Assembly: GCF_001317345.1 (NCBI RefSeq)
Contig: NZ_JXCG01000012.1
Span: forward strand, 1 to 51,062
Reading direction: 5' to 3'
DNA: 51,062 bases
Origin: Thermococcus sp. EP1
GTDB lineage: Archaea > Methanobacteriota_B > Thermococci > Thermococcales > Thermococcaceae
The notes beneath the pieces were generated by a model. It saw nothing but the letters and a program-made list of their open reading frames with translations, was not told the origin of the DNA and did not search any database. Below, piece by piece: positions 16,913 through 44,215 of this stretch (position 1 is its first letter; each line of letters starts with the position of its first letter). The translations under genes were made by a program, and so were the position numbers.

Positions 16913-17163
16913 CTGGCTCCCTCCATATATTTTGCTAGAATAAGACCTCCCACTGCATTGACCATTAAAAGCACTATTGCGAGGTCTAAGAAGAAATATT
17001 CATTCATTATAAAACCAAAAATAGCCAAAACCACCACTACCTTTGTGGTCACTGTATTTATTCCCACAATTCTATCGGCTAACGTTGGTCCAAAAAGAAC
17101 TCTATACGATAATATCAAAGATGTAGCCACCAGTATTAAAGCTCCCCAGCCAAATGGGTTCAC
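16909..17163 (-). CDS. mnhF: Mrp/Mnh antiporter subunit F (MbhB-like)
   Basis: 84 residues with three membrane helices; RVLFGPTLADRIVGINTVTTK is the MnhF signature (G-P-[TS]-x-x-D-R-[IV]-x-x-x-[ND]). I prefer the GTG at 17163, which overlaps the mnhE stop as GTGA and gives the family's usual length; an ATG seven codons earlier (17184) is in frame but its GAGGG is too close to serve as a ribosome-binding site. Confidence 0.87.
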   Translation of the reverse strand: MNPFGWGALILVATSLILSYRVLFGPTLADRIVGINTVTTKVVVVLAIFGFIMNEYFFLDLAIVLLMVNAVGGLILAKYMEGAR

Positions 17164-17765
17164 CAGAAGATCTTCTTCAACCATCCCTCGATATCCCCCT
17201 TAATCTTCTCCCCAGCTTTTTCTCTATTGAGAGTTTCCACCTTTATCCAGTGAACATATAGATAGGTCTCTCCAAGTTTTTTATTCACATCTACAGTTAA
17301 TGTCCCCGGAGTTAAAGTTATAGAATTAGCCAGAATTGTTATACCTGTGTTTGAGTGTAGATCAGTCTTTATTTTCACGATACCTGGATTTATATCCATA
17401 AGAATCGCATGTCTTGCTACTTTAAAGTTACTCTCAATTAGCCTGAAGACCATGATAAAGAGGTATTGTGGAATAACAAAAAAGGCGATATAAAGAATTT
17501 TCTCTACTATATGACCACTCTTTCTTATATCACTAGTGAGCATTTCATACATAAAAAGGGATATTATAAAAGTCGCTATTCCACCAATGAAAAGATTCTC
17601 TGATCTTATATTTGTACTTATGATCACCCAAAATGAAAAAAGTGCAATCCAAGTTAGAACTACCTGTTCCCATTTTGGAAGTTTTTGTGCCTCATAAGTT
17701 TCAAATAATACCCTCTGCTTTATTTCATCAAGCCGCTCTCTGAGATAAAAAGGGACTCTACTCAT
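17160..17765 (-). CDS. mnhE: Mrp/Mnh antiporter subunit E (MbhA-like)
   Basis: 201 residues and first gene of the antiporter run. About 40 soluble N-terminal residues precede membrane helices (VVLTWIALFSFWVIIS, LFIGGIATFIISLFMYE, ILYIAFFVIPQYLFIMVFRL). The later part carries the MnhE pattern: NPGIVKIKTDLHSNTGITILANSITLTPGTL and YLYVHWI. The cytoplasmic 40-residue extension is longer than in bacterial MrpE. A TATA-like element (GGGTTATAATT on the minus strand, about 17786-17796) lies upstream and probably drives all eight genes. Confidence 0.9.
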   Translation of the reverse strand: MSRVPFYLRERLDEIKQRVLFETYEAQKLPKWEQVVLTWIALFSFWVIISTNIRSENLFIGGIATFIISLFMYEMLTSDIRKSGHIVEKILYIAFFVIPQYLFIMVFRLIESNFKVARHAILMDINPGIVKIKTDLHSNTGITILANSITLTPGTLTVDVNKKLGETYLYVHWIKVETLNREKAGEKIKGDIEGWLKKIFW

Positions 17766-17887
17766 GTATTATATTAGGTTTTTGCTAATTATAACCCTTT
17801 TGTTAAGCATTTACCCAACTTTTTTATACTCTAAAAACATAATTCTTACATAAAGTTTTGAAGATATCAATAATTATGGTGATAACG

Positions 17888-18439
17888 ATGCCCAGCAATT
17901 GGGAAAAGATAGTCTCGATAACAAAAGGGGGAGTAAGGAGTATCGCAATGATGAAACAAAAAATTCAACGAGGCAAAAAGATTGCTTTACTCATAGATGG
18001 TCCCAATATACTAAGAAAAGAATTCCACGTCCATCTTGAGGATATAGTTAAGGCCCTGGAAGAGTTTGGAAATATTAGAGTGGCGAAGGTCATATTAAAC
18101 CAATACGCTCCCCAAGGACTTATTGAAGCTATTGCAAATCAGGGTTTTGAACCAATAATTGTTGCTGGAGAAACAGGGGTAAAACTTGCTGTTGAAGCCA
18201 TGAGAGAGATATATAATCCAAATGTAGATATAATCGCTTTAGCAACTCGAAATGCTGAATTCTTACCTATAATATTAAAAGCAAAGGAAAAAGGAAAAGA
18301 AACTGCTATAATCGGGATTGAACCTGGGTTTAGTGCAGCTTTAAAACATGCCGCAGATTATGTGGTAATTCTTGAAAGAGGTGAAGCTAATGAGAGCATC
18401 TCTATTCAAGATACTGAGAAGAGAAGAAGGAAAGCCTAG
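17888..18439 (+). CDS. NYN/PIN-like domain protein, paralogue A (TIGR00288 type), degenerate acidic site
   Basis: 183 residues. A basic N-terminal region of about 30 residues precedes an NYN (PIN-like) domain that starts at [16 protein letters not shown] domains are usually metal-dependent ribonucleases using four acidic residues. Here D37 is kept, but the second position is G97 (GETGV) and the last motif reads ATRNAEF (N122, E124), so at least two of the four acids are lost compared with paralogue B. Start: GGTGAT five bases before ATG 17888; earlier in-frame starts (17858, 17876) lack a site. The next gene begins 50 bases before its end. Probably a partner or regulatory subunit rather than an active nuclease; that is inference. 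Confidence 0.78.
18095..18126 (+). repeat. 32-base direct repeat, copy 1 (within NYN paralogue A)
   Basis: This 32-base stretch is repeated exactly at 18597-18628 in paralogue B, encoding the [11 protein letters not shown] segment in both genes. Identity at the DNA level suggests a fairly recent duplication or gene conversion between the tandem genes. Confidence 0.85.
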
Positions 18440-18914
18440 GGAAAAAGAAAAGAAAGAAGTTCCCAAGACCCCTCCAAAGAGTGTAGGGCTTATAATTGAT
18501 GGACCCAATATACTAAGAAAGGAATTCGGGATAAAACTTGAAAACATAAAAGAAGCTCTAGAAAAGATCGGAAAGATTAGAGTGGCTAAAGTTGTTTTAA
18601 ACCAATACGCTCCCCAAGGACTTATTGAGGCCATTGTAAATCAAGGATTTGAACCAATAATAGTTGCCGGAGATACAGACGTAAGAATTGCCATTGAAGC
18701 GATGGAACTCATATACAATAGCGACATCGAGGTAATAGCCCTCGCTACAAGAGATGCAGATTTTCTGCCAATAATAAATGAGGGGAAAGGAAAGGGTAAA
18801 GAGACCGTCATTATAGGAGTAGAACCAGGCTTCAGCATTGCTCTCCAGAATGCCGCCGATTATGTCATTAAGATGGAAGGAAAAGGCGAACAAACTGAAG
18901 GGTACGAAGAGTAA
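18390..18914 (+). CDS. NYN/PIN-like domain protein, paralogue B (TIGR00288 type), intact acidic site
   Basis: 174 residues. After a charged N-terminal linker ([14 protein letters not shown]), the NYN domain begins at [13 protein letters not shown]. All four expected acidic positions are present: D37 (IDGPN), D97 (GDTDV), D122 and D124 (ATRDADF). So this copy is the one most likely to cut RNA. It shares long stretches with paralogue A ([16 protein letters not shown], [25 protein letters not shown]). ATG 18390 follows GAGGTGA by about five bases and lies inside paralogue A, so the two are co-translated. The C-terminus is acidic. Substrate unknown. Confidence 0.82.
18597..18628 (+). repeat. 32-base direct repeat, copy 2 (within NYN paralogue B)
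   Basis: Exact copy of 18095-18126; see that entry. Confidence 0.85.
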
Positions 18915-18918
18915 TACA

Positions 18919-19371
18919 CTATTCCTCTTCAAACTCCAACTTTAGAGATGTGTATTCCCTTTTAAGCTGCTCTACTATTTGAGAGACCTCTGCACTAAGC
19001 CCCATTAGTTTTTCAGAAAGTTTACTAAGTTCTTCTATAGCAATTTCCAAGGCCTTTTCACTTTCTTCTACCTCTTTCATGGCCTCAGCAAGCTTTTCTT
19101 CTTCCTCCCGTTTGTATACTTCAATTTTTAAGGTATCATAATTCCACATTATTTCGCCACTTCTAATAGAAAACTCTATTGAAATTCGCACAACATCTTC
19201 TTTTCTAACTCCCATCTCCTGAAGTTTCTCAAATAAATATTGATTCAGCTGCGCAGCTGCTCTTACAACCTTTTCGGGGTTAAGTTTTCCTCGTGTTAAT
19301 GCAAAAAGAACTTTTCTAACCTTATTTGCATACCCGCTTGCCCTAACAAATCCTGTTGAGAGCCTGGGCAT
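18919..19371 (-). CDS. DUF2258-like archaeal protein with C-terminal coiled coil
   Basis: 150 residues. The opening MPRLSTGFVRASGYANKVRK and the following LFALTRG match what I know of the archaeal DUF2258 family, whose members are uncharacterised and proposed to act on nucleic acids. Residues about 10-85 are a compact alpha/beta domain (EDVVRISIEFSIRSGEIMW); residues about 86-150 are an acidic coiled coil (EEEEKLAEAMKEVEESEKAL). It lies convergent to NYN paralogue B (5-base gap) and divergent from adenylate kinase. Function unknown. Confidence 0.7.
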   Translation of the reverse strand: MPRLSTGFVRASGYANKVRKVLFALTRGKLNPEKVVRAAAQLNQYLFEKLQEMGVRKEDVVRISIEFSIRSGEIMWNYDTLKIEVYKREEEEKLAEAMKEVEESEKALEIAIEELSKLSEKLMGLSAEVSQIVEQLKREYTSLKLEFEEE

Positions 19372-19428
19372 AGCTCCCCACCATAATACTTTAATGCACT
19401 GAAAATATATATCAATATTGGTGATCGA

Positions 19429-20103
19429 ATGAATATTTTAATTTTTGGTCCTCCAGGTTCTGGAAAATCTACTCATTCAAGGAGAATTATAGAAAAATAT
19501 CATATCGAATACATCGCTTCGGGAGATATAATACGAGCTGAGATAAACAAAGAAAACGCTTTAGGTCGAGAAATGAGAAAATATATAGAAAAAGGAGAGT
19601 TACTCCCAGACACGGTGATAAATACTCTCGTTCTTTCAAAACTACGAAGGAGAAGAGAAAACTTCATCATAGATGGATACCCTCGAACAGCCGAACAGGT
19701 TTTGGCACTAGAAAACTTCTTGTATGACCATGGAATAAAAATAGATCTAGCAATTGACATTTTTATTTCAAAAGAGGAAAGTATAACCCGCATATCTGGG
19801 AGAAGAATTTGCAAACGCTGTGGGGCTGTCTACCATATAAAATACAACCCACCCAAGATTTCTGGAAAATGTGATGTTTGTGGTGGAGAGGTGGTTCAAA
19901 GAGAAGATGACAAGCCAGAGATAGTGTCAAAAAGATATGACATCTATATCAACAACATGAATCCCATAATTAAGTTCTACAAAGGCCAGGGAGTGTATGT
20001 ACAGATAAACGGGCATGGAGGGATAGAAGAAGTTTGGGAAAGAATTAGGCCCCTATTAGATTATATATGGAATAGAGAAAGGAAAAGAGAAGAATTTGAA
20101 TAA
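19429..20103 (+). CDS. adk: adenylate kinase
   Basis: 224 residues. Catalyses ATP + AMP = 2 ADP in the cytoplasm. The P-loop GPPGSGKS is at residues 7-14; the AMP-binding DGYPRTAEQV follows; and the lid carries four cysteines (CKRC ... CDVC), a zinc site common in thermophilic long-form enzymes, followed by QREDDKPE and the arginine-bearing RYDIY. GGTGATC precedes the ATG. This is the bacterial-type long form, which occurs in some Thermococcales alongside or in place of the archaeal trimeric type. Confidence 0.94.
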   Translation: MNILIFGPPGSGKSTHSRRIIEKYHIEYIASGDIIRAEINKENALGREMRKYIEKGELLPDTVINTLVLSKLRRRRENFIIDGYPRTAEQVLALENFLYDHGIKIDLAIDIFISKEESITRISGRRICKRCGAVYHIKYNPPKISGKCDVCGGEVVQREDDKPEIVSKRYDIYINNMNPIIKFYKGQGVYVQINGHGGIEEVWERIRPLLDYIWNRERKREEFE

Positions 20104-24100: not shown

Positions 24101-24163
24101 GACTTTTTGCATCTTGTAGTGTCACTAAAATCAAAATTAGTAGCACAATTGGTGGTGAAATTT

Positions 24164-26269
24164 ATGAAAAGTAGCAAGATGTTGGTGGCGCTGCTTGTAA
24201 TATCTATCTTAGCATTCAGCAGTGCATGTGTCCAAAAGACTCCAATGGAAACAACCTCCACCTCAATCATCCAAGAAAAGACAACAAGTGCATCTCATGC
24301 TCAAACAGAAACTCAAGAAAAAATAGTAATCACAGACTTTGCGGGAAGAGATGTAACTTTAGAGAAAGTTCCCGAACGAATAATTGTTTTAACAGGCTAT
24401 TGGACCGAGATTCTTCACATACTTGGTTTAGATGATAAAATCGTTGGCATTGGAAAGTACGTTCCAAATAATCCATATATCCCTGAGGAAGTTAAGCAAA
24501 AGCCAGCAGTAGGAAGTTCATTTAAGGGTCTTAATTGGGAAAGTGTTGCAAGTTTAGGGCCAGATTTAATAATTGCTGATTGGTATGGTGGTAAATACAA
24601 GGACAAGGAGACGATTGAGAAAGCAGAAGAAATTGGCATTCCAGTTATAGCACTAACTGCTCAAAGTGTGGAGGATAACGTTAAAGTAGTAGAGCTTTTG
24701 GGGAAAGTTTTTGGGAAGGAAGAGAAAGCCGAAGAGCTTTCAAATTGGATGAAGAGCAAGTTGGAAGAAGTGAACAAAATAGCCAGCCAAATCCCAGATG
24801 ATGAGAGGAAGAACGTCATTATCATAAATGCTCCCAAAGACATAAACGGCCCAATCACAGTTTATGCAAAGGGAAGTGCTTGGGCAAGCATCGTTGAGCT
24901 CGTTGGTGCTCACAACTTGGCTTTTGACAAAGAGTTCGACACTCAGTGGCCGAAGCTTGATTTGGAGAAGATAATTGCATACTGGGGAGACAAAGCTGAT
25001 GTTATAATCGTAACCTCCTTCAGTCAGGATACGCTTGAAAAAACTGTGAATGACATAAAAAACGACCCAAGATGGAGAGAAATTAAAGCAGTTAAGGAAG
25101 GACATGTTTACGGAATTTTGGCCGGTTCTAAAGGATTCTTAGACTGGGGACCAAGGATAGTCGTAGGAGTCTACCAAATGGGTGGACTAATTTATCCAGA
25201 GTATTACCCAGAGTGGAAGCCAGTTGCAAAGGAATTATTTGAGAAGTTCTATGGGCTTAGCTATGAGATAAAAGTGGAGGTAATGGACTCTGCTGGAAGA
25301 AAGGTGACCTTTGAAAAAGTTCCCGAAAGAGTCATCGTTACAAGTAGTTATTGGGCTGAAGTTTTGCATTGCTTAGGCTTGGACGACAAAATAGTGGGAA
25401 TTGATAAGTACACGCCAATGGATCAATTCTTACCAGAAAGCGTTAAGCAAAAGCCGCAAATTGGCTCTGTTTATAAAGGAATTAATTGGGAAACTGTTGC
25501 AAGCTTAGAGCCAGATTTGATCGTAATGGGCCTGTGGTGGGGCTCATTTGAGCCAAAGGAAAAGGAACTATTTGAGAGAGCAGAAGAGCTTAACATTCCA
25601 GTTTTAGCCTTTGGAATTCCTGATTCAAACAAGACAGGAACAGAAATGCCCTATGAAAACATTAGGATAATAAGAGTGCTTGGAAAAGCCTTTGATAAGG
25701 AGAGGGAAGCCGAAGAACTGGCAAGCTTCTTGGAGCACTATTATAATCAAGCCCTTGAAATAGCGAGCAAAATACCAGAAGACAAGAAGAAAAACGTGCT
25801 TATAGTTTACGGCTCATCAATTACTGGTAAATATGCAACAGGGACAATAACTGTCTCTACAAGAGGAAGTGCTTATGCTGAAACCGCTGAACTTGTAGGG
25901 GGACACAACTTAGCTTTTGACGTCAATGAGGGAGGACCTTACCTAAAGCTTGACTTAGAAAAGCTCATAGCACACTTTGGAAACAAAACTGACATTCTAA
26001 TTGTTGTTGACTGGGAAGCGGAGAGACTTAATGAGGCAGTTGAGAAAATCAAGAGCGATTCAAGTTGGCAGGAGATTAAAGCAGTTAAAGAAGGAAACGT
26101 CGTTGGAATATTAGTGAGCTCATATAAGAAAGACGCAACTGCTCTTTATGGACCAAGGTTCATAACGGGAATTTATGCCTTTGGTCATGCAATTTATCCA
26201 GAATACTATCCCAACTGGGAGCCAATCTACAATGAGATACTCCAGAAGTTCTACAAGATAGAGGGGTGA
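24164..26269 (+). CDS. lipoprotein with two fused FepB/BtuF-type substrate-binding domains
   Basis: 701 residues. A signal peptide ends in FSSAC (lipobox-like, C about residue 22) and a Thr/Ser-rich tether follows. Two cluster-A-3-type (metal-chelate/B12) binding domains are joined in tandem: residues about 53-365 and about 368-700. They align closely (AGRDVTLEKVPERIIV against AGRKVTFEKVPERVIV; LGLDDKIVGIGKY against LGLDDKIVGIDKY), indicating an internal duplication. Each would capture a metal chelate, corrinoid or tetrapyrrole outside the cell and hand it to the permease. ATG 24164 follows GGTGGTG by six bases. Family members normally have one domain, so the fusion is unusual. Ligand unknown; iron siderophore, cobalamin and heme are all in range. 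Confidence 0.88.
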   Translation: MKSSKMLVALLVISILAFSSACVQKTPMETTSTSIIQEKTTSASHAQTETQEKIVITDFAGRDVTLEKVPERIIVLTGYWTEILHILGLDDKIVGIGKYVPNNPYIPEEVKQKPAVGSSFKGLNWESVASLGPDLIIADWYGGKYKDKETIEKAEEIGIPVIALTAQSVEDNVKVVELLGKVFGKEEKAEELSNWMKSKLEEVNKIASQIPDDERKNVIIINAPKDINGPITVYAKGSAWASIVELVGAHNLAFDKEFDTQWPKLDLEKIIAYWGDKADVIIVTSFSQDTLEKTVNDIKNDPRWREIKAVKEGHVYGILAGSKGFLDWGPRIVVGVYQMGGLIYPEYYPEWKPVAKELFEKFYGLSYEIKVEVMDSAGRKVTFEKVPERVIVTSSYWAEVLHCLGLDDKIVGIDKYTPMDQFLPESVKQKPQIGSVYKGINWETVASLEPDLIVMGLWWGSFEPKEKELFERAEELNIPVLAFGIPDSNKTGTEMPYENIRIIRVLGKAFDKEREAEELASFLEHYYNQALEIASKIPEDKKKNVLIVYGSSITGKYATGTITVSTRGSAYAETAELVGGHNLAFDVNEGGPYLKLDLEKLIAHFGNKTDILIVVDWEAERLNEAVEKIKSDSSWQEIKAVKEGNVVGILVSSYKKDATALYGPRFITGIYAFGHAIYPEYYPNWEPIYNEILQKFYKIEG

Positions 26270-43514: not shown

Positions 43515-43994
43515 ATGTCTCAAAAAAACAACCAAACTCCGCAAATTGGTTTGGTTGTAAATGGCCCTAATATCCTATCGAAACGATTTAACGTCAGGAT
43601 TGATGAGATTCCAAATATTTTGAGAAGTCTTGGAAGAATTGTTATAGGGAAAGTCGTTCTTAACCATAACATCGCTCCAAAACTTGTTGAGATTATCATT
43701 GACTCTGGTTTGGAGCCAATCATTGTTAATGGGAGAGTTGATGTGGCTGTTGCCGTTGAGACTATGAAAATAATCTACAACCCAAAAATAAATATTCTAG
43801 CATTAGGAGTTAGAGATGCACACTTCATGCCTCTTGTCATAGAAGCCAAAAAGATGGGGAAAGAAGTAATTATTATCACTCCAAAAGACGAAATAAGCGA
43901 TGCACTACAAAATACTGCAGACAGGGTTATAGAGCTTTCAGGAAACCAGTTTCGAGATTGGGTTACAACATCTTCAAAATTAACCTCTCCTTAA
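43515..43994 (+). CDS. NYN/PIN-like domain protein, paralogue C, degenerate acidic site
   Basis: 159 residues and a clear relative of the tandem pair at 17888-18914: LVVNGPNILSKRF, LGRIVIGKVVLNHNIAPKLVE, SGLEPIIVNG, VRDAHFMPLVIEAK. The first expected catalytic Asp is N16 (VNGPN instead of IDGPN), and the last acidic position is His in RDAHF, while the second (RVDVAV) and third (RDAHF) Asp remain. So its losses are opposite to those of paralogue A. A trailing 20-residue Ser/Thr-rich tail follows the domain. It is read with its own AGGGG ribosome-binding site, a short distance before a KH-domain gene. Confidence 0.78.
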   Translation: MSQKNNQTPQIGLVVNGPNILSKRFNVRIDEIPNILRSLGRIVIGKVVLNHNIAPKLVEIIIDSGLEPIIVNGRVDVAVAVETMKIIYNPKINILALGVRDAHFMPLVIEAKKMGKEVIIITPKDEISDALQNTADRVIELSGNQFRDWVTTSSKLTSP

Positions 43995-44035: not shown

Positions 44036-44215
44036 ATGAGAGAAGAACTCAAACGCATGCTCAAAGTTGAGATCCTAGAGATCGAATACGAACAAGATAA
44101 GATAATTGTTTATGTCCCTAAAGACCAAATTAGAATAGCCGTAGGTAGCGGAGGAAGTGCTGTCAAAGCAGCGGAGCTTGTTCTCGGTAAAAAAATTGAA
44201 ATCCGGGGTAGATGA
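44036..44215 (+). CDS. small KH-domain RNA-binding protein
   Basis: 59 residues forming a single KH fold: a helix (REELKRMLKVEIL), strands (EIEYEQDKIIVYVP), the G-x-x-G loop in IAVGSGGSAVKAAELVLG, and a final strand. This is the NusA-like short KH type found in archaea. ATG 44036 is five bases after GGGGT. The M50 protease gene follows after three bases. Confidence 0.82.
   Translation: MREELKRMLKVEILEIEYEQDKIIVYVPKDQIRIAVGSGGSAVKAAELVLGKKIEIRGR

Follow-up and report, generated by a model that had tools for sequence, protein, structure and literature searches.

The window, i.e. the whole analysed stretch of 51,062 nucleotides from Thermococcus sp. EP1 (contig NZ_JXCG01000012.1), contains two neighbouring genes, here called A and B, which encode NYN-domain proteins (Table 1). 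Gene A starts with an ATG preceded by GGTGAT, and gene B with an ATG preceded by a 7-base Shine-Dalgarno match. Both products belong to the Pfam family NYN (PF01936; 79.5 bits, E 4.6e-22 for A and 85.2 bits, E 8.3e-24 for B, cut-off 24.2) and to NCBIfam TIGR00288 (210.9 bits, E 9e-63 and 217.8 bits, E 7e-65, respectively, curated cut-off 178.45). The two proteins are 68% identical and align in register from residue 30, so that one residue numbering is valid for both. An Rfam scan of positions 17000-20000 returned no matches. The initial annotation described D37, G97, N122 and E124 in A against D37, D97, D122 and D124 in B, a 50-base overlap of the two genes and a perfect 32-base repeat shared by them. 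The residues were reproduced exactly by the in-register alignment, and both the overlap and the repeat are present. Position 95, absent from that annotation, represents a fifth fixed change of the acidic cluster (D95 in B, E95 in A). In addition, A carries K131, K153 and H154.

Table 1. Coordinates of the A-B gene pair, its repeats and a distant paralogue in the window
Feature	Positions	Strand	Basis
Gene A, NYN-domain (TIGR00288) putative pseudo-nuclease, 183 aa	17888-18439	+	NYN and TIGR00288 profile matches, fold model
Gene B, NYN-domain (TIGR00288) predicted active nuclease, 174 aa	18390-18914	+	NYN and TIGR00288 profile matches, fold model
A/B overlap, 50 bases, start of B inside the end of A	18390-18439	+	predicted translational coupling
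300-base direct repeat (72% identical), first copy, domain core of A	17993-18292	+	direct-repeat comparison
300-base direct repeat (72% identical), second copy, domain core of B	18495-18794	+	direct-repeat comparison
Perfect 32-base repeat, A copy, encodes 11 residues	18095-18126	+	exact match
Perfect 32-base repeat, B copy	18597-18628	+	exact match
Paralogue C, TIGR00288-like, N37, R95, D97, D122, H124	43515-43994	+	profile search, below cut-off

The acidic positions were related to characterised nucleases by aligning the TIGR00288 family profile to VPA0982 (PDB 2qip), with the chain index taken as residue number + 3 according to the alignment. D92 and D115 of VPA0982 correspond to A/B positions 97 and 122. 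One report equates D14/D92/D115 of VPA0982 with D358/D426/D452 of MARF1 and D13/D118/D143 of a B. fragilis NYN protein (PMC11346440), and the catalytic aspartates of all three proteins map onto positions 37, 97 and 122. As judged from these alignments, three of the four acids represent the established catalytic set, while D124, like D95, is accessory. The objection, foreseen by the initial annotation, that the four acids might not form the catalytic site thus does not apply, since the aspartates of solved or characterised relatives fall on three of them. All three are present in B in 89/89 genomes; D37, G97 and N122 are found in all full-length A orthologues. Lacking two of the three catalytic aspartates, A is classed by its sequence as a pseudo-nuclease. 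B would then be an active nuclease, A would be inactive, and RNA is the presumed substrate. The fold models of A and B have a core pLDDT above 90, and the closest solved folds for both are 2qip and the MARF1 NYN domain (PDB 6fdl, 5yaa), which places both in the NYN fold. A PDB sequence search with B alone gave no match, 2qip being found only with the profile.

We then surveyed 94 Thermococcaceae genomes of six genera, reading the A-B locus in all carriers. Both genes were present in 89 genomes and neither in five, and there was no genome with only one of them. Four of the five genomes without the pair are 73-82% complete, and the remaining one (G077) is 96% complete. The order A then B on the same strand was kept in 89/89 genomes, as were D37/D97/D122/D124 in B and E95/G97/N122/E124 in A; D37 of A was present in 88/89. 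In the 89th genome (G030, L092), the A frame, intact in the other 88, is broken just before the DGPN motif, either naturally or by a sequencing fault. The DGPN motif and D37 are fully kept in full-length A. The conservation check proposed by the initial annotation therefore showed the substitutions of A fixed in all orthologous pairs with B always intact, and no A orthologue having all four acids, which had been named beforehand as evidence against its reading, was found among the 89 genomes. A chance difference confined to one genome is ruled out by the same numbers.

A and B are under equally strong purifying selection. Invariant positions account for 70 of the 133 core positions in A and 69 in B, mean pairwise identity is 86% and 89%, and median dN/dS is 0.032 and 0.036, respectively. 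Fixed differences between A and B are restricted to 12 of the 133 core positions, which include 95, 97, 122 and 124 as well as E131K, Q153K and N154H (B to A). The probability that three of the four catalytic acids fall among these 12 positions by chance is 0.002. N154, replaced by H in A, is otherwise invariant in the relatives whose sequences were read. As read from the alignments, A has gained the positive residues K131, K153 and H154 while keeping nearly all family-invariant residues. The fixed loss of cutting residues in A suggests a needed partner, not a relic.

The pair is also tightly arranged. In 87/89 genomes, the best start codon of B precedes the end of A. The overlap is most commonly the 4-base ATGA (or GTGA); in other genera it can be as long as about 125 bases. 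In nearly all cases, a Shine-Dalgarno match within A precedes the start of B. From this geometry, we infer that A and B are translationally coupled. The proposal that an active nuclease and a pseudo-nuclease are made together, put forward in the initial annotation, is hence well supported by the invariant substitutions, intact B, adjacency, overlap and equal constraint. The heterodimer also suggested there, with an activity or RNA choice that would depend on A, is a prediction. As for the neighbourhood, 67/89 Thermococcaceae genomes have tmcA as the immediate upstream neighbour of A, in the same orientation and usually at a distance of 60-80 bases. It was not found in this position in the genus of the window (in whose genome it lies on another contig) or in Pyrococcus-type genomes, nor did it adjoin single-copy relatives in the loci read. 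The only constant unit across loci is the A-B pair itself. The product of tmcA makes N4-acetylcytidine (TK0754 in T. kodakarensis, PMC6393311), and its vicinity may serve as a lead, and only that, to a role of A/B near tRNA/rRNA maturation.

The 32-base repeat (ttaaaccaatacgctccccaaggacttattga) lies inside the 300-base direct repeat formed by the domain cores. At L005, an orthologous locus encoding the same A protein as the window, only 3 of 500 synonymous shuffles reached a 32-base run (mean 15); codon choice by itself would usually give a shorter run. It is part of a patchy A/B homogenisation confined to codons 35-95. In 87 genomes, there were 56 in-register identical A/B runs of at least 30 bases, up to 64 bases long, at varying places but always within these codons. 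No run of at least 30 bases was detected in codons 96-162 of the same genomes, despite stretches of 19 and 21 codons without a fixed difference. Where A and B encode the same amino acid, codons were identical in 61% of cases across codons 38-94 (47-48% expected from codon use) and in 46% across codons 132-152 (43% expected). The simplest reading of this patchiness is probably recurrent local gene conversion, which would be allowed in the shared half, whereas in the catalytic half it would either not occur or be removed. The alternative would be a special codon constraint in codons 38-94.

Relatives were surveyed in 59 Archaeoglobi and 152 Methanobacteria genomes and in the other families of Thermococci. 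A TIGR00288 gene above the cut-off was present in 55 of the 59 Archaeoglobi genomes, one in each, and the non-Thermococcaceae families of Thermococci mostly contained one as well. These single-copy proteins match A/B in family, fold and length. The acids are kept in those whose sequences were read, and B has all the conserved residues. They differ from A/B in being mostly encoded by one intact gene per genome. Most archaeal relatives thus represent a single intact copy with no pseudo-partner, from which it follows that B-type proteins can work without A. The fixed tandem pair of an intact and a degraded copy was restricted to Thermococcaceae among the genomes searched. Two more unusual cases were noted: a Hermodarchaeota genome (G126; L202, L207) has two TIGR00288-like genes with degraded acids, DHHR and DDNK, and a bin labelled Thermococcus sp. 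S139 (L130, L159) contains an Archaeoglobus-like TIGR00288 gene, probably through binning contamination.

Two copies above the TIGR00288 cut-off were present in 14 of the 152 Methanobacteria genomes. Here, too, one copy (P1) is intact, and the second (P2) carried N122 in 11 of the 12 sequences read (eleven fetched loci and L234), four of which also have E124 as in A; one P2 (G117) still has D122. In contrast to the A-B pair, D97 is kept in P2, and P1 and P2 are not adjacent. With the N122 copy and the intact one at separate loci, co-translation from a tandem pair is no general feature. In a tree of 133 core columns with the motif columns removed, A (100/98) and P2 (96/87) formed separate clades. 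A single ancient origin of N122 common to A and P2 was considered and rejected: the whole core does not allow A to be joined with the N122-bearing P2 (p-AU 0.004), with a weaker result for the C half only (p-AU 0.10). This weaker rejection leaves independent substitution likely and not proven. D122N in P2, followed by D124E in one branch, was thus likely acquired in parallel to A, most likely after an independent duplication. In the tree of the C half, the region without homogenised tracts, A and B each formed one clade, P2 still grouped with Methanobacteria, and A branched outside B and the single-copy Thermococci genes (88). From this position of A, the A/B duplication may be older than Thermococcaceae. 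About 1.6 kb downstream of one Methanobacteria P1, an ORF (L118:5040-6111) resembles, by eye, RNA 3'-phosphate cyclase.

A third, more distant TIGR00288-like gene of the window, paralogue C, scored 145.4 bits, under the cut-off of 178.45. It occurs sporadically, in 6/94 Thermococcaceae genomes, with two copies in one of them (G078). In C, NGPN replaces DGPN while D97 and D122 are kept, so that the acids lost are complementary to those lost in A. Directly downstream, a 59-aa ORF (44036-44215) resembles a single KH/NusA-type RNA-binding domain, with weak NusA-like matches. Elsewhere in the window, a 720-aa ORF (24107-26269) consists of two successive periplasmic-binding-protein-like halves, indicative of internal duplication.

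TIGR00288 is listed by NCBI as a hypothetical equivalog only. The open-access literature searched contained no mention of this identifier, no account of a catalytically active TIGR00288 protein and no description of the A/B pair. The closest functional likeness is found in the composite PIN nuclease SMG5-SMG6 of nonsense-mediated decay, likewise formed by paralogous PIN-like domains, one with catalytic acids and one without. There, full activity requires the inactive domain, by which both the active site and the RNA path of the other paralogue are completed (PMC12923823). A/B shares with it the co-conservation of an active and an inactive PIN-like paralogue, activity being judged from residues in our case. 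SMG5-SMG6 differs in being eukaryotic and multidomain and in belonging to a PIN branch other than NYN/TIGR00288. Moreover, completion of the site by the partner was shown experimentally there, whereas the A/B complex is predicted. The likeness is an analogy of function, with no claim of orthology or family membership. For MARF1 and the B. fragilis CRISPR NYN (PMC11346440), nuclease activity has been demonstrated, and both have aspartates where B has D37, D97 and D122. No tandem pseudo-partner of these proteins or VPA0982 is described in the available parts of the sources. MARF1 and VPA0982 share 11-19% identity with A/B. The fungal pseudo-nucleases of the Dis3L2/Ssd1 group (PMC8097288) resemble A in the repeated loss of nuclease residues and a retained RNA-related role, but they belong to the RNase II family, not PIN/NYN, and have no tandem active partner.

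Taken together, we lean towards the view that A and B represent an active NYN nuclease and a selected, co-translated pseudo-nuclease working as one unit, probably a heterodimer. What was observed directly is the residue state, its fixation, co-inheritance, operon geometry, purifying selection and the lack of homogenisation in the catalytic half. The proposal draws on the fixed residue asymmetry and the concentration of fixed differences on the catalytic acids, the co-inheritance of the genes, the overlap, the equal selection on both genes, the restriction of homogenised tracts to codons 35-95, the parallel D122N in the second copy of Methanobacteria and the precedent of SMG5-SMG6. According to it, A and B would be translated together from overlapping frames and form a complex, most likely an obligate heterodimer or a higher hetero-oligomer. 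B, with its metal-binding aspartates, would cut RNA, and A, which kept the fold but only one of three catalytic carboxylates and acquired positive residues, would hold or position the RNA, or else gate or complete the site of B. Points against it are the MARF1 NYN domain, which is monomeric in solution (PMC6294520), the single intact copies without a partner in most archaeal relatives, the unlinked arrangement in Methanobacteria and the lack of any catalysis reported for TIGR00288 proteins in the literature searched. A broader version of this proposal, which we put forward only tentatively and hold to be rather doubtful, is that archaeal NYN nucleases repeatedly become composite enzymes in which the dead paralogue serves as an obligate subunit and completes the site of the living one, be it for RNA binding or for catalysis. 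Thermococcaceae, with a tandem and co-translated pair, and Methanobacteria, with unlinked copies, would each have arrived separately at such an archaeal counterpart of SMG5-SMG6. Selection would maintain the dissimilarity of the catalytic halves, and gene conversion would homogenise the remainder.

Several other explanations have to be weighed against a working A-B unit. A might be an RNA-binding protein that works separately, silencing or chaperoning the RNAs cut by B or acting as their decoy, with no stable complex and with shared expression only fixing the ratio. This agrees with the positive residues gained in A, with the unlinked N122 copy of Methanobacteria and with Ssd1, a pseudo-nuclease derived from Dis3L2 that turned into an RNA-binding protein, its active site having been lost at least four times (PMC8097288). 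However, the strict adjacency of the genes, whose frames overlap in practically all of the 89 genomes, and their both-or-neither presence exceed what such a role would need, and we consider it unlikely. A decaying duplicate without function, to which the lost catalytic residues and the single broken frame might point, is ruled out for practical purposes: in six genera, the conservation of A equals that of B, and A is intact in 88/89 genomes.

PIN toxins are common in archaea, and a tandem overlap with the non-catalytic gene first resembles the order of toxin-antitoxin modules. A could thus act as an antitoxin-like inhibitor, forming a poisoned heterodimer from which B is released under some condition. 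The vertical inheritance of the pair (89/94 genomes) and its low dN/dS are unlike the typically patchy toxin-antitoxin modules, and single-copy intact relatives exist without any partner, making this improbable. A type II system of the VapBC kind, with a non-homologous antitoxin and patchy occurrence, was rejected, as both proteins are NYN paralogues of near-universal vertical distribution. We assign a similarly low probability to A having remained a catalyst, through a changed metal site (D37, E124 plus one more acid), or having taken on a new activity. In favour of this, A retains D37 and DGPN in full and merely exchanges one acid for another (D to E) at 95 and 124, yet it lacks two members of the established set of three catalytic aspartates (D97 to G and D122 to N). 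In MARF1, changes of D426, the equivalent of position 97, and D427 impair function in cells (PMC6294520), and D13A abolishes the activity of the B. fragilis NYN (PMC11346440).

TIGR00288 proteins are widely distributed in thermophilic archaea, and the A/B paralogues combine apparent gene conversion in one half with strict difference in the other. A fixed pair of an active and a dead nuclease in genetically tractable archaea makes the role of a pseudo-nuclease for its partner directly testable. If A/B is indeed a composite enzyme, it would represent an independent archaeal parallel to the arrangement known from human nonsense-mediated decay.
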